From positions 6,386,001 through 6,450,000 of the forward strand of contig NC_134830.1 in the NCBI RefSeq assembly GCF_004210375.1: DNA of 64,000 nucleotides, in the 5' to 3' direction. The notes under the pieces were generated by a model. That model made no database searches and was not told the DNA's origin. It saw nothing but the letters and a program-made list of their open reading frames with translations. Numbering within the stretch: position 1 is the first letter of the stretch; every line of letters starts with the position of its first letter. The stretch is from Tachypleus tridentatus (taxonomy: Eukaryota > Arthropoda > Merostomata > Xiphosura > Limulidae). The translations under genes were made by a program, and so were the position numbers. Positions 2,166 through 62,320 of this stretch are shown in pieces.

Positions 2166-3077
2166 CGTTGAGTGACGTTAAACGTCAACTTGTGAGCGTG
2201 GACTTCGCCTTTACAGACTTTGGATGTTCAGCAGTGAATGTACAAAGTTTCACACATGTCATACAGAACTACCCGGAATAAACTTGTTAATAATTTGTTT
2301 CAAATTTTGCCTCTTGCGTTTCTTTTTTGGAGAGTTTATTTAGCAAAGATTTCGACTGAATGACGCGTTCACTAATTGTAGTATAATTTATAACGTTTAG
2401 CCAGGGACAGTTTTTACGGCAGAGTTTCTGTAAACTTCGCTTTTTTCAGTCTAAACAAGAGATATCGCTAACCCTAAATGTGTTAAATTTCACAGTTACG
2501 ATAGTTACTGAGTTCTTGACATGATTAGTTCTGTTGCTGAGTTTTTGTTTTGTTTCGTTTTGTTGTCCAGCGGTTCACGGTTATCGTGACCTGGTTAGAA
2601 ATCCACGAAACAATGACAGTAAGACTATTCTAGTTCTGTATTTGGAACGTAATGATCTCAACATCGGGGTGAAAGAACTTTAGCATGACGTCATATGTAT
2701 CAACATCCGCTTATGCTCGTTCTGAGTAACTGGCGAAAATAATGCATTGAACATTCATTGTTATGAAACTGGTTCCATGTGATACTGTCATGGCACGTGC
2801 TACTAGCGATATCGGTATGCACGAAGCACGAGCGTGGGAATTGCCTCGTGGGCTTGCCACCGTGCCACAAAAGCGTGTCCGATAGCCAGTGTTCGTGGAA
2901 GGTTTTTGTTATTTATTTATGGTAATTATTACGCCATTGATTGTTTATAAGAAAGTTTCCAAGTGGTATACCATACATACCACAACATGGGGAGGGGATG
3001 GGGTCTGGATTATAGCCTTATTTCCGGTTGTTGTTGTTTCATACACTCACGCTATGTTTATTACCCATTACAACGAA
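2166..3077. other. No gene seen
   Basis: The 3' flank of the Tc1-like remnant, with an AATAAA at about 2278, followed by unremarkable AT-rich sequence. The terminal repeats of the transposon could not be located. Confidence 0.5.
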
Positions 3078-3085
3078 GTCAAACG

Positions 3086-3225
3086 CAGCGGCGGATTTAA
3101 GATTGTGTGGGCCCTACACCCCATGTAATTTTATATAGGATAAATTTATCAATGGGGCCCTATTAAGACCATAGACCCTGGAGCTGAACCCCCCCCCCTC
3201 TAGCTCCTGCCTAAATACGCCACTG
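3086..3225. mobile_element. Non-autonomous hAT-type element, 140 bp
   Basis: Imperfect terminal inverted repeats: CAGCGGCGGATTTAAG at the left end, and at the right end the complement of CAGTGGCGTATTTAGG. The flanks GTCAAACG (3078-3085) and GTTAAACG (3226-3233) are an 8-bp target duplication with one mismatch. TIRs starting CAG with 8-bp duplications are typical of hAT elements. The interior is non-coding and includes a run of C. Confidence 0.75.
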
Positions 3226-3233
3226 GTTAAACG

Positions 3234-3697
3234 GAAACAAAATACAATGACATTTAGTTTATCTTGTTTAGCCAGGGTCATTTTTAAGTTTTAATGTTTG
3301 TGTATTACCATAGATACGTTTAGATTTTCTTTCCCGGCGATGTAAGGGTAATAGGGTAATACCAAATTCAACTTTGTAGCTCTAACGTAATTTTAGCGAT
3401 ACAACGACTAATTTTTACTTAACTTAAAATCATATAAGCTTTGCTTACTTTTCACCTGTTTCAACTACTATACAGTAGTGCATTGTCTGTGTTGTCAGTC
3501 AGTCAGTAGACACTAAAATAAACATCACACAAAGAATGCTTAAGATTACAATATTTACTGTTGTCAGTAAAATGTGCGCATGCCATGAATCACGAGAATA
3601 ATTATTCACCCTGTAAGTTACAACGTAGTGTGACAGATGAACTTCAAAAGCGAGGAATCAAAATATTTTTTCTGTTAATTTAACGCTTACAACACTA
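3234..3697. other. No gene seen
   Basis: AT-rich sequence with no recognisable exon or repeat. Confidence 0.5.
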
Positions 3698-3785
3698 AAA
3701 TCCGGGTTTCGATACTCGTGGTGGGCAGAGCACAGATAGCCCATTGTGTAACTTTGTGCTTAATTCAAAACAACAACAATTTATT
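3698..3785 (+). mobile_element. SINE-B fragment
   Basis: The 3' two thirds of the SINE-B family: B-box region GGGTTTCGATACTCG, then GCAGAGCACAGATAGCCC and an A-rich CAA-type tail. The A-box half is missing or diverged. Confidence 0.75.
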
Positions 3786-3984
3786 TATTCTTGAAAATAA
3801 ACTTTCGGGAACCGCGTCGAAATACGTCTAGTAAAGATAAACTGATGTCATATCACCATTAATGTCCATTGTATTTCCACGAAATTATTGTTGATGTATT
3901 TTGTGTTTTTTTCCGTCGTAGTCTTCATTAGATTTTACTCGAAAAATTATATATCTCATCTGCTCCGTCTCTCCAGGGGCCCAA

Positions 3985-4245
3985 CTGCATGGCATGGCCA
4001 AGTGCTTAGGGCTCTCGACTGGTAATCTTAGGGTCGCGGGTTCGAATTCCCGTCACATCAAACCTGTTCGACCTTTCAGCTGTAAGGACGTTATAACGAT
4101 TTCGATCAATCCAAGTATTCGTTGATAAAAAAGTAGCCCAAGAGTTGGCGGTGGGTGGTGATAACTAGGTGCCTTCCCTCTTGTCTTACACTGCTAAATT
4201 AGGGATTGTTAGCGCAGATAGCTTTGTGCAAAATTTTTAAAAAAC
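3985..4245 (+). mobile_element. SINE-A copy (tRNA-derived, ~260 bp)
   Basis: The tRNA-like head has an A box (TGGCCAAGTGCTTAGG) and a B box (GGGTTCGAATTCC). The family-specific body follows (GTAGCCCAAGAGTTGGCG, GGTGGTGATAACTAGG), then the TAGCTTTGTGC tail module. Diverged, hence old. Confidence 0.85.
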
Positions 4246-4646
4246 TCATGAAACTGACTCGTAACGATTGTGTAACAACTTTTTATTCACCAACAGACAG
4301 AATGTCTCGAACAGTGCTGAGTGTTTATTCCGACTTTAGTAAAAAGGAAGTGACATTATCAAGGTGACACAGGCAATGTACCAGTGCTGCTCGTGTTTTA
4401 AACATCTTGTTTTGCAAATGAGACGTTTTCGCTTTTGTTTACAATAATCACTGATCGCGTGATATGTATTATAGCCAATCACAACGATAGACTTACATCT
4501 GGAAATAAACATTGGATTATTTCATAATATCTTTTTTCAGCATTGCCGTCAAACTCGTCTTCGAACAACAAACAAACAAAAACAAAACAACGCAAGACGA
4601 GTGAATACGTTCTCTGCCATATTGGAAATGCTAACTTCCTCTACCG

Positions 4647-4846
4647 CAGTGGTTCTTAACCTTTTTCAGTGTTTGCACCCCTTTCAAATCAGTAATCATT
4701 TCTCGCACCCCCTGGAAACTTAAATATAAAAAAAGCTAAAAATATAACGCATACTCTTATGTAAAAATATAGATTTGCTTTAATTATTCATGGGCATCCT
4801 CGCACCCCTTGGGAATCATCTTCGCACCCCTGGTTAAGAACCCCTG
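4647..4846. mobile_element. Non-autonomous hAT element, 200 bp, with perfect 8-bp target duplication
   Basis: The TIRs CAGTGGTTCTTAACC (left) and the complement of CAGGGGTTCTTAACC (right) differ at one base. The identical 8-mer CTCTACCG lies directly outside each end (4639-4646 and 4847-4854). The interior is non-coding and contains internal GCACCCC repeats. TIR sequence, size and 8-bp duplication fit a MITE-like derivative of a Charlie/hAT transposon. Confidence 0.9.
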
Positions 4847-4854
4847 CTCTACCG

Positions 4855-5410
4855 GTACATTTGGAAGAGAATATACAGAAAAGGTTCCAGCCAATAAAAT
4901 CAGCAAACAGCAGTTTCTCAGCACGTGATGTTTACTATCTGATTTCACGTGAAATTAATAACGCACGCATGAATTTATTGGCACATTTTCAGAGATTCCA
5001 TTTTATTTATTTCGAATCGAATGCATTTTTCTGTCAACGAAAGAAGTATTTGTGCAGTATATTTCTCACAATAACATTTTTACGCACAGCAAAAGTAAAA
5101 CAAAGTTCTTTTCGATAACTGTTGTCACATGCAGCGAAAAACTAATTCTTTATCCCCTAGGCCTGTTATCACTTAAGTAGTTGACGTAGCATGTGACGAA
5201 ATGTTTAGTCATTTCCGGTGATATAGACAAGAATTTCCGTACCAGCTTATCGACGACACGTTGTGTGTAAAAAAAGAAAGAAAAGAAATGAATACAAATA
5301 AAAATTTATATACAAAACATCGACCAAACTACTTCCGCATCGTTTATGAGTTATATATAGATATAGTTTGGTATTTTCTGTCGATTTAAAGTTGTTTTTT
5401 TTGGTGTTAG
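4855..5410. other. No gene seen
   Basis: An 85-codon open frame at 4861-5118 has no recognisable domain and looks like chance AT-rich sequence. Confidence 0.45.
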
Positions 5411-5411
5411 G

Positions 5412-5505
5412 GTATGCTATGTCTGCTCACCGAGGATATCGAAACCCTGTTTCCAGCAGTATGAGCCCTCAGACATACCGTTGTGCCACGGGGGGTGGAT
5501 GTTTA
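5412..5505 (-). mobile_element. SINE-B copy, 3' truncated
   Basis: Read on the minus strand it carries the A-box region (GGCACAACGGTATGTCTG) and a B-box region (GGTTTCGATATCC). It lacks most of the 3' tail. Confidence 0.7.
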
Positions 5506-5702
5506 AGATGGTACCTGCTGAGTTATTAAATGTATTGACCGTAGGGGAAATCGAAATGTTAAATCATAAGAGCTAGGCCTTTTGCTCTACTCATGAGTCA
5601 CTCCGTTTAATTTGATGGCTCATTAATTAGAGCGTCCTGGTGGAACTCTTTAAAGTTAAAGAACATCTCTGTTTGGAAAAAAAAAAAAACATCTGCTGCT
5701 CA

Positions 5703-5778
5703 CGGTTTGGTTTGTTTTGTTTTGAATTTGAATTTCGCGCAGAGTTACACGAGGACTATCTGCGCTGCTAATCACGGA
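5703..5778 (-). mobile_element. SINE-A tail fragment
   Basis: Only the 3' module is present: complement of GAATTTCGCGCAGAGTTACACG followed by ACTATCTGCGC. The head and body are absent. Confidence 0.6.
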
Positions 5779-5889
5779 ATGTTACTTGTGAAGTTTAGTT
5801 GATGAAGTGACAAAACTGATATAAAAATGTAGCATTTAAAAACACATTGCACGTTTCTTCAATCATTATTTCAGTCTTCGTAAATATAG

Positions 5890-24276: not shown

Positions 24277-26295
24277 AAATTTATCTGTAAAAACGACTGG
24301 TTTTGTTTGAGAAAGTGTTTTATGCAGAGGAGCGAACAACGTTTCGACCTTCTTCGGACATCGTCAGGTTCACAAAGAAAGAAAGAGGTAACTGACCGAT
24401 AGCTGACCACATGTTTGAAGGGGTTGTATAACTGAGTGTAGAAATGTAGAAGGCGTGCTTAGATGTTTGATTATATTTATTAATATAGGTATAAACGTGT
24501 TCCTTTGTATTGGTTTATTTTGAGCTTGCGTTGTTGTATAAGTAAGGTTTCTTTAATTTTGCGTTTCTTTATTTAGTATTTGAGTGTTTTCTATGGTTAT
24601 GTTGTGTTTATTTGATTTGCACTGTTCGAAAACGTGACTTTTTGTGTTCTTTGAATCTGGTTTCCATTTTTCTACTTGTTTCTCCAATATAGAAGTTGTT
24701 GCAGTTATCACATTGTATTTTATAAATAATGTTGGTGTGGTGTTTGTACATAGTATAGATCTCAGTTTTGTGCCTGGTTTTTGAATAAATTTGGTGTCAA
24801 CTGGAATGTCATATTTTGTTACTAGTTTTTGCCAAATGTTGGTTATTTTTTGGCTGATGTCGGGAATATATGGTATACAGCAGTATATGGTTTCATAATT
24901 TTTTGATTCGTGAGATATATTTACTTTTGTTGGTTGATTTTCCTTTCTGTCTAGGTGTATGCGTATAATGTTTTCTACAGTTTGTGGAGGAAACTTATTG
25001 ATGTTGATGAAGTATTGTTTTATTTTGTCTAATTCACCGTTAATTTTATCTGGTGAGCATAGTTTCATGGCTGTGTTTATTTGGTTTCTTAGTATGTTGA
25101 GTTTTTGTTTTGTTTCATGTGCTGAGTCCCAAGAAATGTATAGTCCAGTATGGGTGATTTTTCGGTGGATTTCTGTTTTGAATTGTGTGTCAGTTCTTGT
25201 AATTTTGAGGTTAAGAAATGATATTTGATTGCTTTCTTCCCGTTCAGATGTGAAGTTAATGTCGGGATGTATTGAGTTAATGTGATTGAAAAAATTAAGT
25301 GTGTTCTGTAGATTTGAATCCCGCAACCGTGTCATCTACATATCTGTACCAGTATAGTGATTGATGTAATGCTGTGTTAGTTGCTTGTGTTTCAACTTGT
25401 GTCATAAAAATATTGGCTAGAACTGGTGATACTGGGTTGCCCATGCTTAGGCCATTTGTTTGTATGTAGTTGTGGTTGTTGAACATGAAGTTTGTCTTTA
25501 TCGTGGTGAATTCTATGAGGGTTGCTAATTGGTTGCTGGGAATGTCTATAGTTGGGTTAGCGTCTCAGATATAGAGTTCTAAGGCTATCTTGCAGACTTC
25601 AGCGGTTGGGACTTCTGTAAAGAGGGATATAACATCGAAACTGGCCATTAAGGCTTTATGATTAAGTTAATTAAGGTTAGATTTGAAATTAAAAAAGTCT
25701 TTGATGAATGAGCTGGCTGATGTTACATATTTGTAGATTGCCCATGCTATGTATTTACCAAGATTGTAATTAAACGATTCATATGAGGACATTATTGGTC
25801 GTAATGGACAATCTGGTTTATGAGGTTTAGGGATGCCGTATATTTGCGGTGTGCGTGAGTCGGTTTTACGTAGGTAGGAATAAAGTGTTTGTGAAATTCT
25901 GTTGGCTTTTTTCATTTGTAGTAGTATTTTGTTTAGTTGCGTTTCGTGTGTCTTTGTTAGATTTGTGAGTATTGGTTTAAATTTGTGTGTGTCTGATAGG
26001 ATGTTCTTCATTTTTTGGATGTATTCATTCGTGTTCATTATGACTATAGCGTTACCTTTATCTGCTTTTAGTATTTTAATGTTTTGTCATATTTAAGGTT
26101 TTAATGGAATTAATGTCTCTTTTTGTAAGATTGTTTTTAATTTTCTGTTTTGTGAAATTATGTTGATGGTTTTGTGAGAAAATTCTTAGAAAAATTGTTT
26201 AAGATGTTGTTTTTAGGTGTTTCTGGAAAATATAAATTTTTAATTTTACCTGGGAAGTTTGGCTGTTGGATGTCAATAAAATTGTCGAAGTTCCC
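24277..26295 (-). pseudogene. Penelope-like retroelement, decayed
   Basis: Reverse transcriptase plus GIY-YIG endonuclease type, minus strand. From 5' to 3': an N-terminal segment (26285-26100, with stops); MNTNEYIQKMKNILSD at 26038; PQIYGIPKPHKPDCPLRP near 25830; RT motif A ASFDVISLFTEVP near 25640; QTNGLSMGNPVSPVLANIF near 25460; RT active-site YVDD near 25350; a thumb-like region with SWDSAHETKQ near 25130; a degraded GIY-YIG region near 24750; and a 3' end with a hammerhead-like motif at 24342-24367. At least three frame breaks and in-frame stops make it inactive. The motif set and order are those of Penelope-like elements; the subgroup was not determined. Confidence 0.82.
24342..24367 (-). 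ncRNA. Hammerhead-like core in Penelope-like 3' end (copy 1)
   Basis: The minus strand reads CTGACGA, a short helix (TGTCC with GGTC, one mismatch), then GAAA. This matches the conserved CUGANGA and GAAA of hammerhead ribozymes. Helices I and III and the cleavage site were not established. Penelope-like elements are known to carry such motifs. Confidence 0.4.
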
Positions 26296-29788: not shown

Positions 29789-30145
29789 AACATTCCTTTT
29801 GACAAATTTACAAATAAATTGTATATCTTTTTACTGGTCGTATATCAAATGAATAAGAACATACAGAGACAAAGATTTTAACACATAGTTTTCAATTCAT
29901 TAATGTGTCCTTGTTTTTATTAAGAACACTTTAAGTATTTATTGGTCATTTTTAATTTGAACCATAAAAAATTAAAAGATATCTGGTTTTATTGCTTTTA
30001 TATACCTTTAGACTAAAAACGTTTATATAAAAAGACCATTAAATTCAAGTCGAACTCATGACCTTTCCAATCGTCGGGTCATAACCTTTGATTTAGTCAC
30101 TACATCCCTCCAGATTACCCGGTTCTCTGTCATTCTCACACAGTC
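29789..30145. other. No gene seen; 3' flank of the HES gene
   Basis: AT-rich unique sequence downstream of the HES 3' untranslated region. Confidence 0.4.
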
Positions 30146-30149
30146 TACC

Positions 30150-30340
30150 ACTGAGGACTTAATCTTCCGATAAGGACTTAGTCTAAGGAATTAATCTTCC
30201 GCTGAGGACTTTGTCTAAGAACTTAATCTTTCGCTGAGGACTTAGTCTAAGGACTTAATCTACCGCTGAGGACTTAGTTTAAGGACTTAATCTACCGCTG
30301 AGAACTTAGTCTAAGGACTTAATCTACCGCTGAGGACTTT
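30150..30340. repeat. Minisatellite, ~32-bp unit, about 6 copies
   Basis: Unit GAGGACTTAGTCTAAGGACT then TAATCTACCGCT. CTTAGTCTAAG forms a short dyad in each copy. Lies 3' of the HES gene. Confidence 0.9.
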
Positions 30341-30450
30341 GGTTTTCCCTTCAAAATATAATATTGGTAAGGGTGTCCAGGTTTGTCGTCACGAGATCAA
30401 ATCATCATTGTGTATTTCTTTTCATAGTTTCTATCAATGTTTCACAATTT

Positions 30451-30456
30451 TTTATT
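30451..30456 (-). terminator. Candidate polyadenylation signal for HES
   Basis: AATAAA on the minus strand, about 275 nt after the stop codon. Other AT-rich sites could serve instead; no transcript evidence is available. Confidence 0.3.
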
Positions 30457-30729
30457 TTCTATGGACTGTTCTTTGTAATTACCATGTTTGTTCTGTAAAC
30501 GGTATGGAGAATGCAGAAGTGTACTCTCAAACATCACATTTTGAGCACTTCTATTTTGTTTACCAGTCTGTTTGTGAAAGTCCATGCCTCATACCCATAC
30601 AGTGCTGTTGAAGCCCGAAAATGACGAAAGTTTGTTCTTAAAGTGACGATCTTACTCGTCCAGATTTTCTTGAGTTTCGCAAGCTGGCCTGTGTTTAAAG
30701 TCAATCTGTGGACAAAGGCTAGTCACTGA

Positions 30730-31931
30730 TCACCAAGGTCGCCAAACAGCTTCACCCGATTCTTCGATAGAGTTGGTAGGTTGATGATGGACGTTTGGAA
30801 GTAGGTGCCTTATTCCTCTGTTGACACAAACTGTTGAACTGTAAATGTTTGAGTTCATGCAGTCTTGTTCACTGGGAACTCGTCCACTATGTTCTTTCAC
30901 AATATCTCTACTTCTGAGTACAGTTTGCGAAGACAAATTAGATAAAGCGTCTGATGATAAAGTTCTCGAATTGTTGCTAAACGAACGATCCATTGACAAA
31001 GAAAAGTGTCTCTTGTCAAATGGATACTGGATATCTGTTCCTGTAGTGGAAGTTGAAGTTGTTGCTGAAATATTTTGTGTAGTGACTGCTTTTTGGATCG
31101 AAGCTGCTGAGTCTTGTGGAGAACAATGGTCGCTGGTACCTGCAATAAAGGAAGATGGAGATGGAGAACAATGGTCGCTGGAACCCGCAATAAAGGAAGA
31201 TGGAGATGTTTTTGATGGTGCCATTATGTTGTCGTTGAACACGTCAGAACCGCAGTCACTGACAGATGGGCTGAGAGCACAGCTTAATGAACTGCTGGCA
31301 CTCGCGGTTCTTCGTGGACCTGATGGAGACACTGGTTGGTCCCAGGAAGAAAGAGGGTAGCGCGAGTTGGCGCTACTTGAAGTAAAAGACAATGGTTTCG
31401 TAGATCTAGAATCTAGTACAAGACTGTTCAAAAGTTGATTAGAAACAGATGATAAGGCTCTGCTAGGGAGCAAAAACGCGATGTCTCCATTGGAAAGGCG
31501 AGTTGGAATAAGATGAAGTCCTCCTAATAGCTTCTCGAAATTGGCTGATGTCATTGAAGAATTGGAAACAGAACCAGATGCCCTTGGAACATTATTATTT
31601 ACATCTACTCCCTGCAAGGGTCTAGAGGGAACACCATTAACAGAAAGAGTACCCAACATTCCAGTGGATATCTGAACTCCTAATGGTTGTAAATGGTTTA
31701 CAATGTCTGGAACAGAACGGGTCATCCCTGGAAAAGCCATATTTGCTGCAGTATTGAATGGGGTAATATTCTGAAGACTGGAAACACAATTTGCCATATG
31801 ATTCAGTAAACGGTGACGGATGCTGTCTTCCACTCCATCTAGTCTGTTAATGTACCTACTCACTTCTGCAGCGCATTCATTGAACCCAGCCTTGAATTTA
31901 TTTAGGACCAAAGGATCCGCAGCAATGGCAG
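30730..31931 (-). CDS. hairy: HES exon 4 (Orange domain to WRPW)
   Basis: 1202 nt. Acceptor TTTTCATGTAG/CTGCC; begins with [13 protein letters not shown] and ends VWRPW-TGA at 30730. Contains the Orange domain, the IPTRL motif and a 45-bp in-frame tandem duplication at about 31122-31211. Confidence 0.95.
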
Positions 31932-34900
31932 CTACATGAAAAGAGACATGTTTTATAAATGTTCATCAAAAACTGGTTTAACTGAACTACATCATGTTTT
32001 ATAAATGTTCATCGAAAACTGGTTTAACTGAACTACATGTTTTATAAATGTTCATCGAAAATTGGTTTAACTGAACTACATCATGTTTTACAAATGTTCA
32101 TCGAAAACTGGTTTAACTGAACTACATCACATGTTACATGTTATTATTTTATCCAATCATCCACTAAAGAAAAGTGTCATATTTTACATAACACTGATTT
32201 GAATGTACACTGATGTAAGATGTTGCGATTAAAACATTTATAAAGACACTTTTACGAATTAGTAAAGAAAACAACAACAACAAATTTACATTGGTAGCGT
32301 GAGAGGTTGAAATATTGGGAATATGCATTTTTTTTTTCTATTTTCTTTACCAAAACAAATATCTGATCTACCAACATACAAAATGTCCGAAAATTGTATT
32401 AATAATAAAATCGTTAACTTTCTTCATTTTCAAAGATGAGATCTACGTAACAATGACTACTAAAATTACTTTGGAACGACGACGGGGGAGAGGGACTGGG
32501 TGGTACCTTCACGCAAAACTACACGAACTAAACGACGGCTGTCTTTACTAGCCGTCTATAATTTGGCATAGCAAAATGTTTGCGGACTTACACCGCGAGA
32601 AACCGGGTTTCGATACCACTGGTGGGCAAAGCACATACAAACAGACCGTTGTGAAGGTTTCTGCTTAACTCCGAACAAATAAACAAATCCTAAGTCACAA
32701 GTGAATGACTACAGGGAAAGCAGCTAGTCATCAGTACCCAAAGGGCTATTCTTTTACGAACGAATAGTGGGATTGGCTGCCACATTATAACACCCCCACG
32801 GATGAAAGGGCGAACATGTTTGGTGGGACGAAGATTTGCACGTGTGTACCATTACGAGCAAAGCTCCCCTGGGCCACAATATACTGCTCCCTGTACTATG
32901 GGCTTTAGGGGTGACACAACCGTGTAAGCGGCGGATGCTGTTGACTGTTAGCAGTCCTGAAATAGGTACAGGCAGCTAAGTCTGATCTTCGGGGTCTCTA
33001 ACCAAGGCGTGAATCGCATAACCAATAAAGGCGGATTAAAACATTCAGAAAATGCATGTTTGAATAAGAATGTCAACATTCACCTCAGAACGAATTGTAA
33101 ATATCTGAGTTCGTACTCACCTCTTGAAGTTTCTTGTTATTCTATCAGGGAAATTTATAGACTACAAAATCCGTTTAGACCGTTTCATTAATCAGTAAAA
33201 TAGTTCTAGTGACAAATCGCCTGGCCCGGCATGGCCAAGCGTGTTAAGGCGTGAGACTCGTAATCTGAGGGTCGCGGGTTCGCATTCCTGTCGCGCCAAA
33301 CATGCTCGCCCTTTCACCCGTGGGAGCGTTATAATGTGACGGTTAATCCCACTATTCGTTGGTAAAAGAGTAGCCCAAGAGTTGGCGATGGGTGGTGACG
33401 ACTAGCTGCCTTCCTCTAGTCTTACACTCCTAAATTAGGGACGGCTAGCACAGATAGCCCTCGAGTAGCTTTGTGTGAAATTAAAAAACAAACAAACAAA
33501 CAGACAAATTGCAGAGCGAAAGAACTGTGGACTGAGATACAAAATATAAGTAACCCGAGCTGGTGGTGGTGACTGGAAGATGTAACAGTATCTTAAATAG
33601 TTTTTATTTGGTCACTAGAACAAATAATGGTATCTTAACTGGTTTCTTTGTAGTGACTGGAATATATAACAGTATCTTAAATAGTTTCTTTGAGGTGACT
33701 GGAATATATAACAGCATCTTAAATAGTTTCTTTGTGGTGACTGGAATATATAACAGTATTTTCGTTTATGTCTGCAAAATGTCAACTATTTGTCGTGTTT
33801 TTTACCAATTTCTAAATATGATTAATATACAGATTCTATCTACAAATGGGCCCCTAGTAACACAACGGTGGGTCTCTGGACTCACGCCGCTAGAAACCAA
33901 GTTTCGATACCTGTGATTGACAGAGCACAAATAGCCCATTGTGTAGCTTTGTGCTCAACTTAAAACAAGCAAGTGACGACTAGTTCAGCTCTAAGCTGTA
34001 ACGTAATTACTGGACTAATTGTATTGTTTAATAAAAGACCATAAGGCTCACCTGCTACCTGTTGTCTCTGGATGTTCTGAAGATGACGCACTGTCATGTC
34101 CAGTATGTCAGCCTTCTCCAGTTTCGAATGTCGGGATGGCTGTGAAGAATAACATACTGACTTGATAATGTGGCCATAACAAAATACAATATTGTTTACT
34201 GACTTGATAATGTGGCCATAACAAAATACAATATTGTTTACTGACTTGATAATGTAGCCATAACAAAATACAATATTGTTTACTGACTTGATAATGTGGC
34301 CATATCGAAATACAATAATGTTTACTGACTTGATAATGTGGCCATAACGGAATACAATATTGTTTACTGACTTGATAATGTAGCCATAACGAAATACAAT
34401 ATTGTTTACTGACTTGATAATGTAGCCATAACGAAATACAATATTGTTTACTGACTTGATAATGTGGCCATAACAAAGTACAATATTGTTTACTGACTTG
34501 ATAATGTGGCCATAACGAAATACAATAATGTTTACTGACTTGATAATGTGGCCATAACGAAATACAATAATGTTTACTGACTTGATAATGTGGCCATAAC
34601 GAAATACAATATTGTTTACTGACTTGATAATATAGCCATAACGAAATAGACTCTTGTATTTTATTTTATAAATTAGTTTTAACAAAACATAAAAATCAGT
34701 AACCTGCTATAATAATGGTCAAGGCGTGGCTTCCTGGTTAGCGTAACCAGAATAGCGTTCTTCGTATTTTGGAATATCGGGTTGGTTATAAAAGAGGCAG
34801 TAAAATCCAACTGTTCGATTATTGTATACCGGGAATAAATAGTAAGTGCCGTTGACAAGCTGTCTTCTATTTGGTCTTATCATCTCGAAAGTTGGAACGG

Positions 34901-37264
34901 TTACCACAGATGGCACTCGTGTAGCTTTACGTGATATGCGAAAAAAACAAAGATCTCCTTACTGTCACGTAAAAATTCACAGTATGACACAGACAGTATA
35001 TCTGTTCACTTGACAGTGAAACATGGATGTCACGTAAAAATTCACAGTATGACACAGTATATCTGTTCACTTGACAGTGAAATATGGATGTCACGTAAAA
35101 ATTCACAGTATGACACAGTATATCTGTTCACTTGACAGTGAAATATGGATGTCACGTAAAAATTCACAGTATGACACAGTATATCTGTTCACTTGACAGT
35201 GAAATATGGATGTCACGTAAATATTCACAGTATGACACAGTTACTATATCTGTTCACTTGACAGTGAAATATGGATGAAGCATTCTTTAATACATCCAGT
35301 ATTAAAGTTTTCAGGTTACGGTACAATACGGATGAATCCTTATTTAATACATCCAGTATTAAAGTTTTCAGGTTACGGTACAATATGGACGAATCCTTAT
35401 TTAATACATCCAGTGTTAAAGTTTTCAGGTTACGGTACAATATGGATGAATCCTTATTTAATACATCCAGTGTTAAACTTTTCAGGTTACGGTACAATAT
35501 GGATAAATCCTTATTTAATACATCCAATATTAAAGTTTTCAGTTACAGTACAATACGGATGAATCCTTATTTAATACATCCAATATTAAAGTTTTCAGGT
35601 TACAGTACAATATGGACGAATCCTTATTTAATACATCCAGTATTAAAGTTTTCAGGTTACGGTACAATACGGATGAATCCTTATTTAATACATCCAATAT
35701 TAAAGTTTTCAGGTTATGGTACAATACGGATGAATCCTTATTTAATACATCCAGTGTTAAAGTTTTCAGGTTACGGTACAATATGGATGAATCCTTATTT
35801 AATACATCCAGTATTAAAGTTTTCAGGTTACGGTACAATATGGATGAATCCTTATTTAATACATCCAGTATTAAAGTTTTCAGGTTACGGTACAATATGG
35901 ACGAATCCTTATTTAATACATCCAGTGTTAAAGTTTTCAGGTTACGGTACAATATGGATGAATCCTTATTTAATACATCCAGTGTTAAAGTTTTCAGGTT
36001 ACGGTACAATATGGATGAATCCTTATTTAATACACCCAGTGTTAACGTTTTCAGGTTACGGTACAATATGGATGAATCCTTATTTAATACATCCAGTATT
36101 AAAGTTTTCAGGTTACGGTACAATATGGATGAATCCTTATTTAATACATCCAGTGTTAAAGTTTTCAGGTTACGGTACAATATGGATGAATCCTTATTTA
36201 ATACATCCAGTATTAAAGTTTTCAGGTTACGGTACAATATGGATGAATCCGTTATTACATCCAATACAGTTAAGATGAATTATTTAATACGTCCATTATG
36301 ATTCCTTCAGTTTATACAAACTGCAGTACAATGTACATGAACACGAATTTCTGATGAAATTCAAAGTTATACTATTTAATACAGCTAAGTTTCAGATGAT
36401 TCGTGACGTAGTTAGTGTATCTAAACATAATACTTACACCTTCATTCAAAGTTATACTATTTAATACAGCTAAGTTTCAGATGATTCGTGACGTAGTTAG
36501 TGTATCTAAACATAATACTTACACCTTCATTCAAAGTTATACTATTTAATACAGCTAAGTTTCAGATGATTCGTGACGTATTTAGTGTATCTAAACATAA
36601 TACTTACATCTTCATTCAAAGCATCTAAAATCAGGGTTTTTAATTCTCCCAGACATTGGTTGATTCGAGCTCTTCTTCGCTTCTCCATGATGGGTTTAGT
36701 AGCCTAGAAAACAGCAGTAGAATTGTGAAGTTAGAAACAAAACCAAAAGATTTGAATCTGAATATTTATATTTATCATGAGAATTCGAGTTACCATAATA
36801 TATCTACACATGAACTGTGTTTGTGTTCATTATCTGCCTTGTGTTATCTAAAGACTTTCATATTACGTTTGTATGTTTTGAGAAATGATAAATATACATA
36901 CGAACACTTGGTGGTTATATTTAAAACCCAAGTCACCATTTCATATTTAAAAACATAATTATTTTTTATTAAATTTACTGATAAAACATAATATATTTTG
37001 ATTATATTCACTTCAGTATTAATCTAATTTTTAATTATTTTTTACATTACATTTTAAACTAATAGTGCAAAACAAATTACATATTTTGAGACACTTTCTC
37101 ATGTAATCGATAATATATATTTTCGTAAAAGTTACTTTAGCGACTGTTGTTAGTTATTAGGTAATAAATACTATTTGACTCGAGTTTGCCCAGTTTTAGG
37201 GAGTACATAACACTATTACCTTTCGATAATCGGTAATTTTGGCAGTGGGTCTTTCTGCTGGCAT
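30730..37264 (-). CDS. hairy: Hairy/HES-family bHLH-Orange repressor, 4 coding exons
   Basis: Nuclear transcriptional repressor of the Hairy/HES1-HES4 type, a usual Notch target. Coding parts are complement(30730..31931, 34052..34139, 36608..36703, 37220..37264): 1431 nt, 476 residues plus stop, continuous across three GT-AG introns. Seen: N terminus [15 protein letters not shown]; basic region with the family proline, [13 protein letters not shown] (residues 18-30); helix 1 [14 protein letters not shown]; helix 2 [16 protein letters not shown] (53-68); Orange domain from about 86 to 128 ([18 protein letters not shown]); the Hairy-type motif [16 protein letters not shown] (217-232); a Ser-rich linker with a tandem 15-residue duplication (319-348); C-terminal WRPW, which binds Groucho/TLE. 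It is longer than typical HES1 (about 280) or fly Hairy (about 340), mainly through the linker. Paralogue identity is not resolved, as this lineage may hold several copies. Confidence 0.95.
31940..32135. repeat. Intronic minisatellite, ~46-bp unit, 4 copies
   Basis: Unit: TGTTTTATAAATGTTCATCG then AAAACTGGTTTAACTGAACT. It starts within about 20 bp of the exon 4 acceptor of HES, in intron 3. GTTCA and TGAAC are inverted arms in each unit. Confidence 0.9.
32495..32880 (-). mobile_element. SINE-A copy split by a SINE-B insertion
   Basis: The tail complement (CTTCACGCAAAACTACACG) lies at 32508-32571; body and head complement (AAGCAGCTAGTCATCAGTAC onward) at 32690-32880. The intervening bases are a plus-strand SINE-B. 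Confidence 0.82.
32572..32692 (+). mobile_element. SINE-B inserted in SINE-A
   Basis: TGCGGACTTACACCGCGAG, then AACCGGGTTTCGATACC, then GGTGGGCAAAGCACATAC and a tail with AAATAAACAAA. The first bases of the head are degraded. Confidence 0.8.
33218..33505 (+). mobile_element. SINE-A copy, near consensus
   Basis: GGCCCGGCATGGCCAAGCGT starts the tRNA-like head. An anticodon-like loop CTCGTAA is framed by AGA and TCT; the B box is GGGTTCGCATTCC; the body is complete; the tail is CAAACAAACAAACAGAC. The loop would place CGT in the anticodon position, so a tRNA-Thr ancestor is possible (inference). In HES intron 3. Confidence 0.93.
33575..33765. repeat. Intronic minisatellite, 42-bp unit, 4-5 copies
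   Basis: Unit GTGACTGGAATATATAACAG; copies at 33653, 33695 and 33737 plus diverged earlier ones. ACTG and CAGT arms surround a 10-nt loop. In HES intron 3. Confidence 0.9.
33848..33972 (+). mobile_element. SINE-B copy
   Basis: GGGCCCCTAGTAACACAACG head, CCAAGTTTCGATACCTGTG B-box region, then AGAGCACAAATAGCCC, GTGTAGCTTTGTGC and an A-rich tail. In HES intron 3, about 80 bp from exon 3. Confidence 0.88.
34052..34139 (-). CDS. hairy: HES exon 3 (helix 2)
   Basis: 88 nt encoding [13 protein letters not shown] to NIQRQQVA plus one base. Acceptor TTCTTCACAG/CC; donor GCAG/GTGAGC (phase 1). A 42-bp minisatellite begins about 15 bp before the acceptor. The open reading frame running from this exon into that array is a repeat artefact. 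Confidence 0.95.
34155..34645. repeat. Intronic minisatellite, 42-bp unit, about 12 copies
   Basis: Unit TACTGACTTGATAATGTGGC, CATAACGAAATACAATATTG, TT, with the palindrome ACAATATTGT. The period is a multiple of three, so long artefactual frames result. Begins about 15 bp from the HES exon 3 acceptor. Confidence 0.96.
34646..34974. other. HES intron 2, non-repetitive part
   Basis: Unique sequence with a short SINE-A tail-like scrap at about 34905-34955 (CTCGTGTAGCTTTACGTG). Confidence 0.45.
34975..35275. repeat. Intronic minisatellite, 61-bp unit, 5 copies
   Basis: Unit contains ATGGATGTCACGTAAAAATT and TTCACTTGACAGTGAA (6-bp arms, 4-nt loop). It runs directly into the next array, sharing ATATGGATG at the boundary. 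Confidence 0.94.
35276..36290. repeat. Intronic minisatellite, 57-bp unit, about 18 copies
   Basis: Unit contains ATGGATGAATCCTTATTTAA and the 8-bp arms TTTAATAC and GTATTAAA around a 5-nt loop. Because 57 is divisible by three, long frames are open on both strands; they are repeat artefacts within HES intron 2. Confidence 0.97.
36361..36620. repeat. 85-bp tandem repeat that includes the HES exon 2 splice donor
   Basis: Three units begin TCAAAG at 36361, 36446 and 36531; the last runs into exon 2 (36608-36620). On the gene strand every unit boundary reads CTTTGAATGAAG(A/G)TGTAAGT, so the real donor at 36607 has two intronic look-alikes 85 and 170 bp downstream. Confidence 0.93.
36608..36703 (-). 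CDS. hairy: HES exon 2 (basic region and helix 1)
   Basis: 96 nt, 32 codons, from [15 protein letters not shown] to LILDALNED, phase 0 at both ends. Acceptor TGTTTTCTAG/GC; donor GAAGAT/GTAAGT. The last 13 nt and the donor are part of an 85-bp tandem repeat that continues into the intron. Confidence 0.95.
36704..37219 (-). other. HES intron 1
   Basis: 516 bp, AT-rich, bounded by GTAATA (donor, 37219 downward) and TTTTCTAG (acceptor, 36704-36711). No repeat array inside. Confidence 0.8.
37220..37264 (-). CDS. hairy: HES exon 1 (coding part)
   Basis: 15 codons, [15 protein letters not shown], resembling the MPA- start of HES1/HES4. The donor follows as AAAG/GTAATA (phase 0). The ATG is preceded by AAATAAA, and it is the start that joins in frame to the basic region. 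Confidence 0.85.
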
Positions 37265-37476
37265 TTTATTTTCTAGTGATGCTGACATAAACTATTAAAC
37301 AGGTAGAAATCTTTGTCTGTGCATCAGCTCAATCACGACAGCGACTTGACAACGTGAACGTTACGTCAAGCTATAACGGAATGTTCGAAGCAACTAAGTT
37401 TTCATAGCTCAAGCTCCAACCCCTGCAGTGTGGGCTGCCGAGCAGTGTTCAACAAGTGCATGTATGGGAACGTGCG

Positions 37477-37482
37477 CGCGTG
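37477..37482 (-). promoter_or_regulatory. HES class C site (CACGCG) near the HES transcription start
   Basis: CACGCG on the gene strand, 11 bp downstream of the TATA box. Hairy/HES proteins bind CACGNG class C sites, so negative autoregulation is possible (inference). A six-base match can occur by chance. Confidence 0.4.
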
Positions 37483-37493
37483 ACGTGAGTTGT

Positions 37494-37501
37494 TATTTAT
37501 A
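37494..37501 (-). promoter_or_regulatory. TATA box of the HES promoter
   Basis: TATAAATA on the minus strand, 230 bp upstream of the ATG, in a locally GC-richer stretch. Transcription would be expected to start near 37470, giving a 5' leader of about 205 nt. Confidence 0.7.
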
Positions 37502-37530
37502 CGAGGTCAACCAAGCGTGTAGACTGAACG

Positions 37531-37562
37531 TGTGAGAACGGCGAAGCCAGCTCGTTCCCACA
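37531..37562 (-). promoter_or_regulatory. Su(H)/CSL paired site (SPS) of the HES promoter
   Basis: TGTGAGAAC at 37531-37539 (plus strand) and TGTGGGAAC at 37554-37562 (minus strand). Both fit YGTGRGAAM exactly. They face each other with 16 bp between the GTGRGAA cores (37532-37538 and 37555-37561). This orientation and spacing define the SPS used by cooperative Notch-CSL-Mastermind dimers at E(spl)/HES promoters. It sits 29 bp upstream of the TATA box. Confidence 0.85.
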
Positions 37563-37599
37563 CTCACAGAGAGTTTCAGGCACGGCGAACGCTGTACAG

Positions 37600-38260
37600 A
37601 TTATGACAGTTCCTCACGGTCTTTGCTTGTGTCGTGGTGGGATGTTGGACAATACTAGGATTCACGGTTATTTTTGTCCTTTATTTAGTAGTCTGTTACT
37701 ACTGATTGATTTAAATATTAAATATATTTATTATTTATTAAATATATTTATATTATATTTATATATTTATATTATATTATATATAGCTATTGACAAAACC
37801 GTGAATTTATTTCATTTTTCAATAAATGGATTTCTCTCACTTTCAGTAAATGACACGTGTATTTTATATTTCTGATAACAGTTTTGCTCAACTTAATTTC
37901 AAACGTAACAGACTCGAAGAAAGTTTGAGGCAACACTTTGACTTATATCTACAAGGCAGACAGAAAGGGCGAGGCAGAATGGCCGTATAGTTCATACATT
38001 TATAACATAATTTAATTTCAAACCACTATATTCTGAAACAGACAATAATTAAATTGGTTTAAATGTACTTTGGCACAGTTATTTTTCCCCACTTTTTATA
38101 ATATATATATACGAACTGACGGGTTTTCTAGATCACCGAGAGAGATCTGTGCTTTGAAATTCCACACTAAACTGGCGTTGTTACTAAAATTCCTACGCAA
38201 GGTTGTTGGTTATAAATTCCAGCAGTCGAGATATAATAAACATGTGCATGTTGATTACTA
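37600..38260. other. HES upstream region, AT-rich part
   Basis: No gene. Long TA-rich tract at about 37700-37790. Confidence 0.4.
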
Positions 38261-38264
38261 GTAC

Positions 38265-38520
38265 ACTCACTGGTGTTTACATGTGGGCGGAGTCTAATAG
38301 TTATGACCCGCAAATCAATCGGGAAGATGGAGATGGGGGATAATCTGAGCATGAATTTGCTGGTAAAACTGCACGTGCCACCACTTTCTACCCATAACCC
38401 TGGCTCGTGCGGAGTGTGGGAAAACTCCGCCTCCCAGCGCACGTCGCGGGTAAACCGGTTTTAAGCCTCCGGGTAAGGAAGTGCAGACATTGCAACTGAC
38501 TTCGTAGGTGTAGGGGACAG
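38265..38520. promoter_or_regulatory. GC-richer block upstream of HES, candidate enhancer
   Basis: Contrasts with AT-rich surroundings. Contains TGTGGGAAA (38415-38423), a third perfect CSL match, and GCACGTGC with the E-box CACGTG at 38372-38377. About 1.0-1.25 kb upstream of the ATG. Enhancer activity is inferred only from composition and motifs. Confidence 0.35.
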
Positions 38521-38659
38521 ATGGATGTTCACGAGCTCTTATGATAGTGTAGTGAGTGTTTTTTAATCTTTAATTTGTTTTTGTTCTTTCTGGCCTATTT
38601 TGATTAGTGTTCGATATCTGACTAAGTCTTAAATGTATTTTGTATATGGAATAAATGAA

Positions 38660-40272
38660 TGAATAACCCAACGCTATGTTCCTACTTCCATTTCCTCACC
38701 ACATTGTCTTCACATTGCTATTTAAATAACCAATGCTATGTTCCTACTTCCATTTCCTCACCACATATTCTTCACATTACTATTTAAATAACCAACGCTA
38801 TGTTTGTACTTCCATTTCCTCACCACATAGTCTTCACATTACTATTTAAATAACCAACGCTATGTTCCTACTTTCATTTCCTCACCACATATTCTTCACA
38901 TTACTATTTAAATAACCAACGCTATGTTTGTACTTCCATTTCCTCACCACATAGTCTTCACATTACTATTTAAATAACCAACGCTATGTTTGTACTTCCA
39001 TTTCCTCACCACATAGTCTTCACATTGCTATTTAAATAACCAACGCTATGTTCCTACTTCCATTTCCTCACCACATAGTCTTCACATTACTATTTAAATA
39101 ACCAACGCTATGTTCCTACTTCCATTTCCTCACCACATAGTCTTCACATTGCTATTCAAATACCCAACGCTATGTTCCTACTTCCATTTCCTCACCACAT
39201 AGTCTTCACATTACTATTTAAATAACAAACGCTATGTTTGTACTTCCATTTCCTCACCACATATTCTTCACATTACAATTTAAATAACCAACGCTATGTT
39301 CCTACTTCCATTTCCTCACCACATAGTCTTCACATTACTATTTAAATAACCAACGCTATGTTCCTACTTCCACTTCCTCACCACATAGTCTTCACATTAC
39401 TATTTAAATAACCAACGCTATGTTCCTACTTCCATTTCCTCACCACATAGTCTTCACATTACTATTTAAATAACCAACGCTATGTTCCTACTTCCATTTC
39501 CTCACCACATATTCTTCACATTACTATTTAAATAACCAACGCTGTGTTCCTACTTCCATTTCCTCACCACATATTCTTCACATTGCTATTTAAATAACCA
39601 ACGCTATGTTCCTACTTCCATTTCTCACCACATAGTCTTCACATTATATTTAAATAACCAACGCTATGTTCCTACTTCCATTTCTCACCACATAGTCTTC
39701 ACATTACTATTTAAATAACTAACGCTATGTTCCTACTTCCACTTCCTCACCACATAGTCTTCACATTACTATTTAAATAACCAACGCTATGTTCCTACTT
39801 CCATTTCCTCACCACATAGTCTTCACATTACTATTTAAATAACCAACGCTATGTTCCTACTTCCATTTCTCACCACATATTCTTCACATTACTATTTAAA
39901 TAACCAACGCTGTGTTCCTACTTCCATTTCCTCACCACATATTCTTCACATTGCTATTTAAATAACCAACGCTATGTTCCTACTTCCATTTCCTCACCAC
40001 ATAGTCTTCACATTGCTATTTAAATAACCAACGCTATGTTCCTACTTCCATTTCCTCACCACATAGTCTTCACATTACTATTTAAATAACCAACGCTATG
40101 TTTGTACTTCCATTTCCTCACCGCATATTCTTCACATTACTATTTAAATAACCAACGCTATGTTTGTACTTCCATTTCCTCACCACATATTCTTCACATT
40201 ACTATTTAAATAACCAACGCTATGTTCCTACTTCCATTTCCTCACCACATAGTCTTCACATTACTATTTAAT
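38660..40272. repeat. Minisatellite, 62-bp unit, about 26 copies
   Basis: Unit: AAATAACCAACGCTATGTTC, CTACTTCCATTTCCTCACCA, CATAGTCTTCACATTACTAT, TT. Two alternating variant positions (TTCCTAC/TTTGTAC and ATAGTC/ATATTC). CTATGT and ACATAG are inverted arms. Confidence 0.97.
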
Positions 40273-41817: not shown

Positions 41818-41912
41818 CCAGATTATGAATCTAACGATCTTGGTTCGTTCCCCGCATTTTATTGACCCAATTAAGAATTTGCGGCGGGTGGTGTTAACTA
41901 GGTGGCTACGTT
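41818..41912 (+). mobile_element. SINE-A relic
   Basis: Degenerate head (CTTGGTTCGTTCCCCGC) and body fragment (GCGGCGGGTGGTGTTAACTA), running straight into the 30-bp array. Confidence 0.55.
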
Positions 41913-41914
41913 GA

Positions 41915-44340
41915 GAAGTTCGAATAACACTAAGGTATTGTTGAGAAGTTCGAATATCACTAAGGTATTGTTGAGAAGTTCGAATATCACTAAGGTATTG
42001 TTGAGAAGTTCGAATATCACTAAGGTATTGTTGAGAAGTTCGAATATCACTAAGGTATTGTTGAGAAGTTCAAATATCACTAAGGTATTGTTGAGAAGTT
42101 CGAATATCACTAAGGTATTGTTTAGAAGTTCGAATATCACTAAGGTGTTGTTGAGAAGTTCAAATATCATTAAGGTATTGTTGAGAAGTTCGAATATCAC
42201 TAAGGTATTGTTGAGAAGTTCGAATATCACTAAGGTATTGTTGAGAAGTTCAAATATCACTAAGGTATTGTTGAGAAGTTCAAATATCACTAAGGTATTG
42301 TTGAGAAGTTCAAATATCACTAAGGTATTGTTACACGACTATAGTTGAGAAGTTCAAATATCACTAAGGTATTGTTGAGAAGTTCGAATATCACTAAGGT
42401 ATTGTTACACGACTATAGTTGAGAAGTTCAAATATCACTAAGGTATTGTTGAGAAGTTCAAATATTACTAAGGTATTGTTGAGACGTTCGAATATCACTA
42501 AGGGATTGTTGAGACGTTCGAATATTACTAAAGTATTGTTGAGAAGTTCGAATATCACTAAGGTATTGTTGAGAAGTTCGAATATCACTAAGGTATTGTT
42601 GAGAAGTTCAAACATCACTAAGGTATTGTTTAGAAGTTGGAATATCACTAAGGTATTGTTGAGAAGTTCAAACATCACTAAGGTATTGTTGAGAAGTTCA
42701 AATATCACTAAGGCATTGTTGAGAAAATCAAATATCACTAAGGTATTGTTGAGAAGTTCAAATATCACTAAGGTATTGTTGAGAAGTTCAAATATCACTA
42801 AGGTATTGTTGAGAAGTTCAAATATTACTAAGGTATTGTTGAGACGTTCGAATATCACTAAGGGATTGTTGAGACGTTCGAATATCACTAAAGTATTGTT
42901 GAGAAGTTCGAATATCACTAAAGTATTGTTGAGAAGTTCGAATATCACTAAGGTATTGTTGAGAAGTTCAAATATCACTAAGGTATTGTTGAGAAGTTCG
43001 AATATCACTAAGGTATTGTTGAGAAGTTCAAATATCACTAAGGTATTGTTGAGAAGTTCGAATATCACTAAGGTATTGTTCAGAAGTTCAAATATCACTA
43101 AGGTATTGTTGAGAAGTTCGAATATCACTAAGGTATTGTTTAGAAGTTCGAATATCACTAAGGTGTTGTTGAGAAGTTCAAATATCATTAAGGTATTGTT
43201 GAGAAGTTCGAATATCACTAAGGTATTGTTACACGACTATAGTTGAGAAGTTCAAATATCACTAAGGTATTGTTGAGAAGTTCGAATATCACTAAGGTAT
43301 TGTTACACGACTATAGTTGAGAAGTTCAAATATCACTAAGGTATTGTTGAGAAGTTCAAATATTACTAAGGTATTGTTGAGACGTTCGAATATCACTAAG
43401 GGATTGTTGAGACGTTCGAATATCACTAAAGTATTGTTGAGAAGTTCGAATATCACTAAGGTATTGTTGAGAAGTTCGAATATCACTAAGGTATTGTTTA
43501 GAAGTTCAAACATCACTAAGGTATTGTTTAGAAGTTCAAACATCACTAAGGTATTGTTGAGAAGTTCAAATATCACTAAGGCATTGTTGAGAAAATCAAA
43601 TATCACTAAGGTATTGTTGAGAAGTTCAAATATCACTAAGGTATTGTTACACGACTATAGTTGAGAAGTTCAAATATCACTAAGGTATTGTTGAGAAGTT
43701 CAAATATTACTAAGGTATTGTTGAGACGTTCGAATATCACTAAGGGATTGTTGAGACGTTCGAATATCACTAAAGTATTGTTGAGAAGTTCGAATATCAC
43801 TAAAGTATTGTTGAGAAGTTCGAATATCACTAAGGTATTGTTGAGAAGTTCGAATATCACTAAAGTATTGTTGAGAAGTTCGAATATCACTAAGGTATTG
43901 TTGAGAAGTTCGAATATCACTAAGGTATTGTTGAGACGTTCGAATATCAGTAAGGTATTGTTGAGAAGTTCGAATATCACTAAGGTATTGTTGAGACGTT
44001 CGAATATCACTAAGGTATTGTTGAGACGTTCGAATATCACTAAGGTATTGTTGAGAATTTCGAATATCACTAAGGTATTGTTACACGACTATAGTTGAGA
44101 AGTTCGAATATCACTAAGGTATTGTTGAGAAGTTCGAATATCACTAAGGTATTGTTTCACGACTATAGTTGACAAGTTCAAATATCATTAAGGTATTGTT
44201 GAGAAGTTCAAATATCACTAAGGTATTGTTTCACGACTATAGTTGACAAGTTCAAATATCACTAAAGTATTGTTTCACGACTATAGTTGACAAGTTCAAA
44301 TATCACTAAAGTATTGTTTCACGATCACTGTTGAGAAGTT
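41915..44340. repeat. Minisatellite, 30-bp unit, about 78 copies, with higher-order structure
   Basis: Unit TTGAGAAGTTCGAATATCAC then TAAGGTATTG. Stretches are separated by a 14-base interruption TTACACGACTATAG (42331, 42405, 43229, 43303, 43647, 44081) and later a TTCACGACTATAG form. Variant units (GAGACGTTCG with GGGATTG, then AAGTATTG) recur in the same order after interruptions. Open on both strands because the unit is ten codons long; not genes. Confidence 0.97.
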
Positions 44341-60344: not shown

Positions 60345-61120
60345 AGTTATAACACCTTAATCATTTTACAGGGAAGATGGGACATTATAACACCTTAATC
60401 CTTTTACACAGAGGATGTGGTATTATAACACCTTAATCATTTTACAAAAAGGATGTGGTATTATAAAACCTTAAGACTTTTACAAAAAGGATGTGGTATT
60501 ATAACACCTTAATCATTTTACATAGAGGATGTGGTATTATAACACCTTAATTCTTTTACATAGAAGTTGTGGTATTATAGCATCTTAATCATTTTACAGA
60601 AAAGATGTGGTATTATAACACCTTAATAATTTTACATAGAGGATGTGGTATTATAACACCTTAATAATTTTACATAGAGGATGTGGTATTATAACACCTT
60701 AATCATTTTACAGAGAGAATGTGGTATTATAGCACCTTAATCATTTTACAGGGAAGATGGAACATTATAACACCGTAATCCTTTTACATAGAGGATGTGG
60801 TATTATAACACCTTAATAATTTTACATAGAGGATGTGGTATTATAACACCTTAATAATTTTACATAGAGGATGTGGTATTATAACACCTTAATCATTTTA
60901 CAAAAAGGATGTGCTATTATAACACCTTAATCATTTTACATAGAGGATTTGGTATTATAACACCTTAATCATTTTACAGGGAAAATGGAACATTATAACA
61001 CCTTAATCCTTTTACATAGAGGATGTGGTATTATAACACCTTAATAATTTTACATGGAGGATGTGGTATTATAACACCTTAATCATTTTACAGGGAAGAT
61101 GGGACATTATAACACCTTAA
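60345..61120. repeat. Minisatellite, 38-bp unit, about 20 copies
   Basis: Unit ATTATAACACCTTAATCATT then TTACATAGAGGATGTGGT. A block starting with the GGGAAGATGG(A/G)ACATT variant recurs (60370, 60750, 60977, 61092), again suggesting higher-order units. Resumes at 62253 beyond an inserted retroelement fragment. Confidence 0.95.
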
Positions 61121-62250
61121 TGTTTTCTACGGTTTGTGGAGGAAACTTATTGATGTTGATGGAGCATTGTTTTATTTTGTCTAATTCATCGTTAATTTTA
61201 TCTGGTGAGCATAGTTTTATGGCTGTGTTTATTTGATTTCTTAGTATGTTGAGTTTTTGTTTTGTTTCATGTGCTGAGTCCCAAGGAATGTATAGTCCAG
61301 TATGGGTGATTTTTCGGTGGATTTCTGTTTTGAATTGTGTGTCGGTTCTTGTAATTTTGAGGTTAAGAAATGATATTTGATTGCTTTCTTCCTGTTCACA
61401 TGTGAAGTTAATGTTGGGATGTATAGAGTTAATGTAATTGAAAAAATTAAGTATGTGTTCTGTAGATTTGAATCCCGCAACCGTGTCATCTACATAGCTG
61501 TACCAGTATAGTGGTGGATGTAATGCTGTGTTACTTGCTTGTGTTTCAACTTGTGTCATAAAAATATTGGCTAGAACTGGTGATACCGGGTTGCCCATGT
61601 TTAGGCCATTTGTTTGTATATAGTTGTGGTTGTTGAACATGAAGTTTGTCTTTATCGTGGTGAATTCTATGAGGGTTGCTAATTGGTTCCTGGGAATGTC
61701 TATAGTTGGGTTAGGGTTTCGGATATAGAGTTCTAAGTTCTATATCTTGCAGGCTTCAGCGGTTGGGACTTCTGTAAAGAGGGATATAACATCGAAACTG
61801 GCCATTAAGGCTTTATGATTAAGTTAATTAAGGTTAGATTTGAAATTTAAATTGTCTTTGATGAATGAGCTGGCTGATGTTACATATTTGGAGATTGCCC
61901 ATGCTATGTATTTACCAAGATTGTAATTAAACGATTCATATGTGGACATTATTGGTCGTAATGAACAATCTGGTTTATGAGGTTTAGGGATGCCGTACAT
62001 TTTTGGTGTGCGTGAGTCGGTCTTGCGTAGGTAGGAATAAAGTGTTTGTGAAATTGTGTTGGCTTTTTTCATTTTTAGTAGTATTTTGTTTAGTTGCGTT
62101 TCGTGTGTCTTTGTTGGATTTGTGTGTATTGGTTTAAATTTGTTCGTGTCTGATAGGATGTTCTTCATTTTTTGGATGTATTGATTCGTGTTCATTATGA
62201 CTATAGCGTTACCTTTATCTACTTTTATAATTTTTATGTTTTTGTCTTGT
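61121..62250 (-). pseudogene. Penelope-like element fragment inside the 38-bp satellite
   Basis: Internal part only. MNTNQYIQKMKNILSD at 62195; PKMYGIPKPHKPDCSLRP near 61990; motif A ASFDVISLFTEVP near 61795; GLNMGNPVSPVLANIFM near 61570; YVDD near 61480; YIPWDSAHETKQ near 61280. Frame breaks near 61740 and 61830. Neither the 5' end nor the 3' tail with the hammerhead-like motif is present. Both flanks are the same satellite. Confidence 0.82.
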
Positions 62251-62252
62251 TT

Positions 62253-62320
62253 TATATATTATAACACCTTAATCCTTTCATAAAAAATATGTACTTTAAC
62301 ACTTTAATCCTTTAACCCTT
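62253..62320. repeat. Continuation of the 38-bp minisatellite
   Basis: ATTATAACACCTTAATCC reappears immediately after the retroelement fragment and grades into the 40-bp array. Confidence 0.8.

Follow-up and report, generated by a model that had tools for sequence, protein, structure and literature searches.

A very probable Su(H)/CSL paired site at the promoters of a HES gene of the horseshoe crab Tachypleus tridentatus and of its paralogues

Su(H)/CSL paired sites (SPS) are defined, in the sections of PMC7685452 and PMC8494340 on which we draw, as two CSL sites placed head to head with a gap of 15-17 bp, the gap being 16 bp in the crystal structure of the dimer. The locus reported here resembles the Su(H) paired sites of Drosophila E(spl) in orientation and in the 15-17 bp spacing (PMC8494340), and it resembles the paired site of mammalian Hes1 in having head-to-head CSL sites with a 16-bp gap at a HES gene, with the difference that the second site of Hes1 departs slightly from the consensus, which both cores match fully in the horseshoe crab (PMC7685452). 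In chelicerates, E(spl) bHLH orthologues were not found by the survey as summarized in PMC4575448, according to which the complex apparently arose in the pancrustacean clade, and our search of the literature, covering titles and the openings of abstracts, found no paired site described at a chelicerate HES gene.

The paired site and the HES gene in the window

In the window, that is the whole stretch of 64,000 nucleotides that was analysed, a motif scan located GTGAGAA-N16-TTCCCAC upstream of a HES gene on the minus strand, at a distance of about 245 bp from its first ATG (Table 1). The two 9-mers TGTGAGAAC and TGTGGGAAC both contain the CSL consensus core, and these GTGRGAA cores oppose each other across a gap of exactly 16 bp (spacer 37539-37554), an arrangement found in 4/4 HES-A paralogues and within the 15-17 bp of the SPS definition. 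The first-pass annotation had placed two perfect sites face to face with 16 bp between the cores, directly upstream of a TATA box; the scan confirmed this geometry and returned exactly the same coordinates for both CSL sites, TATAAATA and CACGCG.

Table 1. Features of the HES-A locus, in coordinates of the window
Feature	Position	Strand	Remark
Candidate Su(H)/CSL paired site (SPS)	37532..37561	.	exact motif match, cores head to head
First 9-mer of the pair, TGTGAGAAC	37531-37539	+	motif scan
Second 9-mer of the pair, TGTGGGAAC	37554-37562	-	motif scan
Invariant heptamer GCTTCGC in the 16-bp spacer	37541..37547	-	identical in 4/4 HES-A copies
Conserved proximal promoter block	37430..37618	-	84% identity over 189 bp vs. 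L012
Predicted TATA box, TATAAATA	37494..37501	-	29 bp from the nearer 9-mer
CACGCG, possible class C (HES-binding) site	37477..37482	-	11 bp past the TATA box
Degenerate CSL site near the predicted start, GTATGGGAAC	37462..37471	+	one mismatch in the window copy
Distal module, core GTTTTCCCACACT ... TGGCACGTGCA	38370..38425	-	about 800 bp upstream; CSL site and CACGTG
Distal CSL site, TGTGGGAAA	38415-38423	+	within the distal module
CACGTG of the distal module, in GGCACGTGCA	38372-38377	.	
HES exon 1, coding part	37220..37288	-	first ATG 37288, alternative ATG 37264
HES exon 2 (basic region and helix 1)	36608..36703	-	
HES exon 3 (helix 2)	34052..34139	-	
HES exon 4 (Orange domain to WRPW and stop)	30730..31931	-	

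The gene had earlier been called a probable HES gene. We joined its four exons into an open product of 484 residues of the bHLH-Orange WRPW type, with matches to HLH (E 2.3e-13) and Hairy_orange (E 9.4e-17) and a C-terminal WRPW, and consider the gene real; its first 157 residues match three solved sequences, two of them HES-1 domains and the third, more weakly, a Hey1 domain. Minisatellites are abundant in the introns and upstream (34155-34648, 34963-35277, 35268-36256, 36359-36621, 38662-40271 and 41910-44274), and since the 85-bp repeat at 36359-36621 spans the end of exon 2 with its splice donor, decoy donors are possible. Elsewhere in the window, the open frames at 24553-26086 and 61107-62258 (minus strand) resemble fragments of a Penelope-type reverse transcriptase.

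The pair is the one match to GTGRGAA-N14-18-TTCYCAC in the entire 64 kb, for which the expected number of N15-17 pairs is 0.0017 with independent bases and 0.0025 under a first-order Markov model. Genome-wide, the N15-17 pattern has 103 matches in 2.17 Gb vs. 65 for the reversed-pattern control, and arithmetic from this count puts the exact pair at about 1e-5 occurrences per 200-bp promoter. As the genome-wide excess of the pattern is modest and not specific, it is the location in a promoter that gives the pair its meaning. Judged from paralogues within one genome, the pair is both beyond chance and kept in evolution.

Paralogous promoters and the distal module

The genome compared comprises 2.17 Gb in 205 contigs and was searched for bHLH domains and then with proteins; all comparisons are within this single genome, and HES-A, HES-B and HES-C are labels of our own. 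Four regions carry HES-A together with HES-B: one on C6 (the window), two on C10 (~192.6 Mb and ~82.5 Mb) and one on C1 (~66.0 Mb). In 4/4 of these, HES-B is transcribed away from HES-A, in divergent orientation, at a distance of ~29-48 kb between match positions. These four regions fit the history of horseshoe crabs given in the portion of PMC7815833 consulted, which reports three rounds of genome duplication. HES-C, a third and weaker type of match, is found on the same contigs at a greater distance, which on C6 amounts to about 2 Mb; no exact SPS was found near HES-C (C1:65.836 Mb and C6:8.60 Mb), nor at a HES-like match at C6:153.67 Mb, among the matches listed (C1 to C7).

The screen for candidate HES genes yielded 15 regions of 10 kb each with partial HLH matches, two of which (L011 and L012) are HES-A copies. 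By tblastn, L016, L017, L022 and L025 are presumably Hey-like and L018-L020 presumably cwo-like in look, while no match at E 1 was obtained for L013, L014, L015, L021, L023 and L024; GTGRGAA-N13-19-TTCYCAC is absent from all 13 regions (10 kb each) other than HES-A. Second copies with equal or near-equal scores were observed for HES-B and HES-C on C6 and for HES-C on C10. We also noticed that C6:6330001-6340000 (L009), about 90 kb away, is an inverted and ~99% identical copy of window positions 30000-39500, which may be an uncollapsed haplotype in the assembly or a recent real duplication; for this reason it was kept out of the count of supporting copies.

The pattern GTGRGAA-N16-TTCYCAC is kept in 4/4 HES-A copies, namely the window, L012 (5385-5414), L011 (7685-7714) and L027 (1501-1530). 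L012 codes for an intact relative, with 279/447 aligned residues identical to the window HES-A. Between these two coding sequences, dS is 2.03, i.e. synonymously saturated, with 70/126 four-fold sites differing; this value was computed for L012 alone among the paralogues and indicates that promoter conservation vs. L012 is not due to recent ancestry. In the L011 copy (2700-5780), frameshifts interrupt exons 3 and 4, which suggests a pseudogene, with assembly error as the alternative, so that retention of the SPS there need not reflect present function and constitutes weaker evidence. Within L011 7606-7715, the exact SPS is kept while TATA and CACGCG have drifted.

In the four-way alignment of the HES-A copies, 23/30 SPS columns are invariant vs. 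74/191 elsewhere, distributed as 6/7 and 7/7 in the cores and 10/16 in the spacer. Only 3/192 windows of 30 columns reach a score of at least 23, these being that of the SPS, its neighbour at offset -1 and one third window, which makes the SPS joint best. Among the runs of invariant columns, the longest two are TTCTCACA and GCTTCGC, both of them in or at the SPS.

A related element was found in the promoters of HES-B, where an invariant run of 33 bp common to all four includes GTGGGAA-N16-ATCTCA (L041 2001-2030, L042 1978-2007, L043 1965-1994 and, on the minus strand, L044 1876-1905 of the reverse complement). Its left half is a perfect CSL core and its right half is weak, agreeing with TTCYCAC at 5/7 positions; the spacer is invariant at 16/16 bases in 4/4 promoters, and the invariant run extends past the element on one side. 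Searched with up to three mismatches, the HES-B 29-mer has five matches in the genome, all exact and all at HES-B (control 0), one of the five being the second copy at C6:8.32 Mb. The run is followed by ATAAAA (4/4), a CSL core (GTGGGAA in 2/4, GTGAGAA in 1/4, lost in 1/4) and then CACGTG (4/4); HES-A has the same elements with the last two reversed relative to HES-B, CACGCG preceding the CSL core. The HES-B element parallels the 'cryptic' SPS of mammalian Hes5, in which a perfect core is combined with an abnormal reverse half at N16, but this is an analogy only, as the reverse half in HES-B differs from TGTGGGAA at 4/8 positions whereas the low-affinity definition in the section of PMC7685452 cited here allows up to two.

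Farther upstream in the window, a second conserved block (38282-38453; 79% over 172 aligned columns vs. L012) contains a module that combines a CSL site with CACGTG. The exact pattern of this distal module occurs at eight places in 2.17 Gb, each upstream of HES-A or HES-B (control 0), the HES-B regions being L041, L042 and L044. Two of the eight are second copies on C6, i.e. the 99% copy of HES-A and the HES-B copy at C6:8.32 Mb, the latter having the same module letters and the same protein-search scores as the C6 HES-B, which leaves six distinct places. The pair of genes at C10:82 Mb is outside the eight: in HES-A the CSL core is degenerate, and HES-B reads CGCGTG. CACGTG is retained in the distal module of 4/4 HES-A and 3/4 HES-B.

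Competing readings and the proposed switch

Based on the geometry of the pair, its position and the retention of orientation and the 16-bp gap in 4/4 HES-A paralogues, which support the SPS proposed in the first-pass annotation, we consider it highly probable that the HES gene carries in its proximal promoter a genuine Su(H)/CSL paired site, through which Notch drives it by the known mechanism. It might be argued that the two sites act as independent monomer sites, with a spacing that was inherited and a capacity for dimerization that is not used, given that the isolated SPS of mouse and human Hes5 is not dimer-dependent (PMC7685452, in the part consulted) and that extra CSL cores, present in the distal module and near the start in 3/4 paralogues (GTGGGAA, or TTCCCAC in gene direction, vs. 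TTCCCAT in the window), could act singly. We regard this as improbable on two grounds: 1) the gap is 16 bp in 4/4 paralogues without an indel, whereas the DNA between the block and the coding sequence has diverged, indels included; 2) both cores in the window are full GTGRGAA matches, unlike the partner site of Hes5.

TATAAATA, the predicted TATA box, is where the earlier annotation had placed it; however, a canonical box is found in 1/4 copies, that of the window, the other copies reading GATAAATA, TTAAATA and ATGAATA at this position. The paired site of Hes1 likewise lies directly upstream of a TATA box. From the position of the box, which in a TATA core promoter lies 25-35 bp upstream of the start, transcription is predicted to begin at ~37465-37470. 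Between window and L012, the stretch from TATA to the predicted start equals the SPS in conservation (29/30 vs. 27/30 identical) and contains AGGTCA, which we take to be a nuclear-receptor-like half site; together with the invariant run of HES-B reaching outside its paired element on one side, this could mean that the block is kept for the core promoter, for the site of another factor or for a UTR function, the CSL matches being incidental. Such an explanation is very unlikely indeed in view of the joint best conservation of the SPS among 30-column windows across the four copies, the very low number of exact pairs expected per promoter from the genome-wide count, and the recurrence of CSL matches in the distal module and in the HES-B promoters. 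A chance occurrence of the pair is ruled out by the expected counts, dS, the genome count and the 4/4 retention among paralogues.

The same stretch bears on CACGCG, for which a role in autorepression had been suggested. The motif does follow the TATA box and is present in 3/4 HES-A copies (missing in L011), but it sits where nearly everything is conserved (29/30). In contrast, the retention of CACGTG in the distal module makes the latter, as far as sequence goes, the better candidate for autorepression, and the view that a complete module is contained within 90 bp was too narrow.

To return to the pair itself, it very probably acts as a real Notch switch, of a kind that flies and mice are already known to have; binding, cooperativity, activation and autorepression are steps that we infer from the known mechanism. 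In the absence of signal, CSL with co-repressors would hold the HES gene off. Upon activation of Notch, two complexes of NICD, CSL and Mastermind would assemble cooperatively on the facing sites through their ankyrin domains, and binding of the dimer would set off a strong burst of transcription of HES, starting ~60 bp downstream. By way of CACGYG sites, the HES protein would then probably damp the gene that encodes it; the distal CACGTG is the likelier of these sites, either together with the CACGCG next to the predicted start or in its place. Matches to the CSL DNA-binding domain are located in the genome at C1:177.3 Mb, C4:11.3 Mb and C4:12.2 Mb.

We further postulate, tentatively and with somewhat more doubt than confidence, that a switch in two parts, a distal CSL site with CACGTG and a proximal N16 pair, was already present at an ancestral HES locus of the lineage, was passed on to HES-A and HES-B as a divergent pair and was kept in four duplicated regions, with the spacer itself under selection. 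The invariance of GCTTCGC in 4/4 HES-A copies and of all 16 spacer bases in 4/4 HES-B promoters suggests that the spacer may carry information; against this, invariance among the other spacer columns of HES-A is limited to 3/9, and the HES-B run exceeds the element.

Significance for Notch control of HES genes

A proneural A site, RCAGSTG, was not found in the window at 36000-39500 or 37221-39000. Unlike the SPS+A arrangement of the fly, the motif is absent beside the SPS in the scanned stretches of 4/4 HES-A promoters; one HES-A copy has RCAGSTG ~1.3 kb upstream.

If the spacer is indeed selected, the bases between the two CSL halves would be informative in paired sites, be it through DNA twistability or a protein not yet recognized, a property that the SPS definitions in the consulted sections of PMC7685452 and PMC8494340 leave out; the set of paralogues lends itself to testing whether the sequence of the spacer is important. 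As E(spl) orthologues were not found in chelicerates in the survey cited above (PMC4575448), the paired-site design appears to predate the E(spl) complex or to be independent of it. Fly E(spl) and vertebrate Hes promoters have this design in common, and the fact that a chelicerate HES gene has it too, with a gap of 16 bp and in four internal replicates, favours the view that control by Notch dimers is ancestral rather than convergent.
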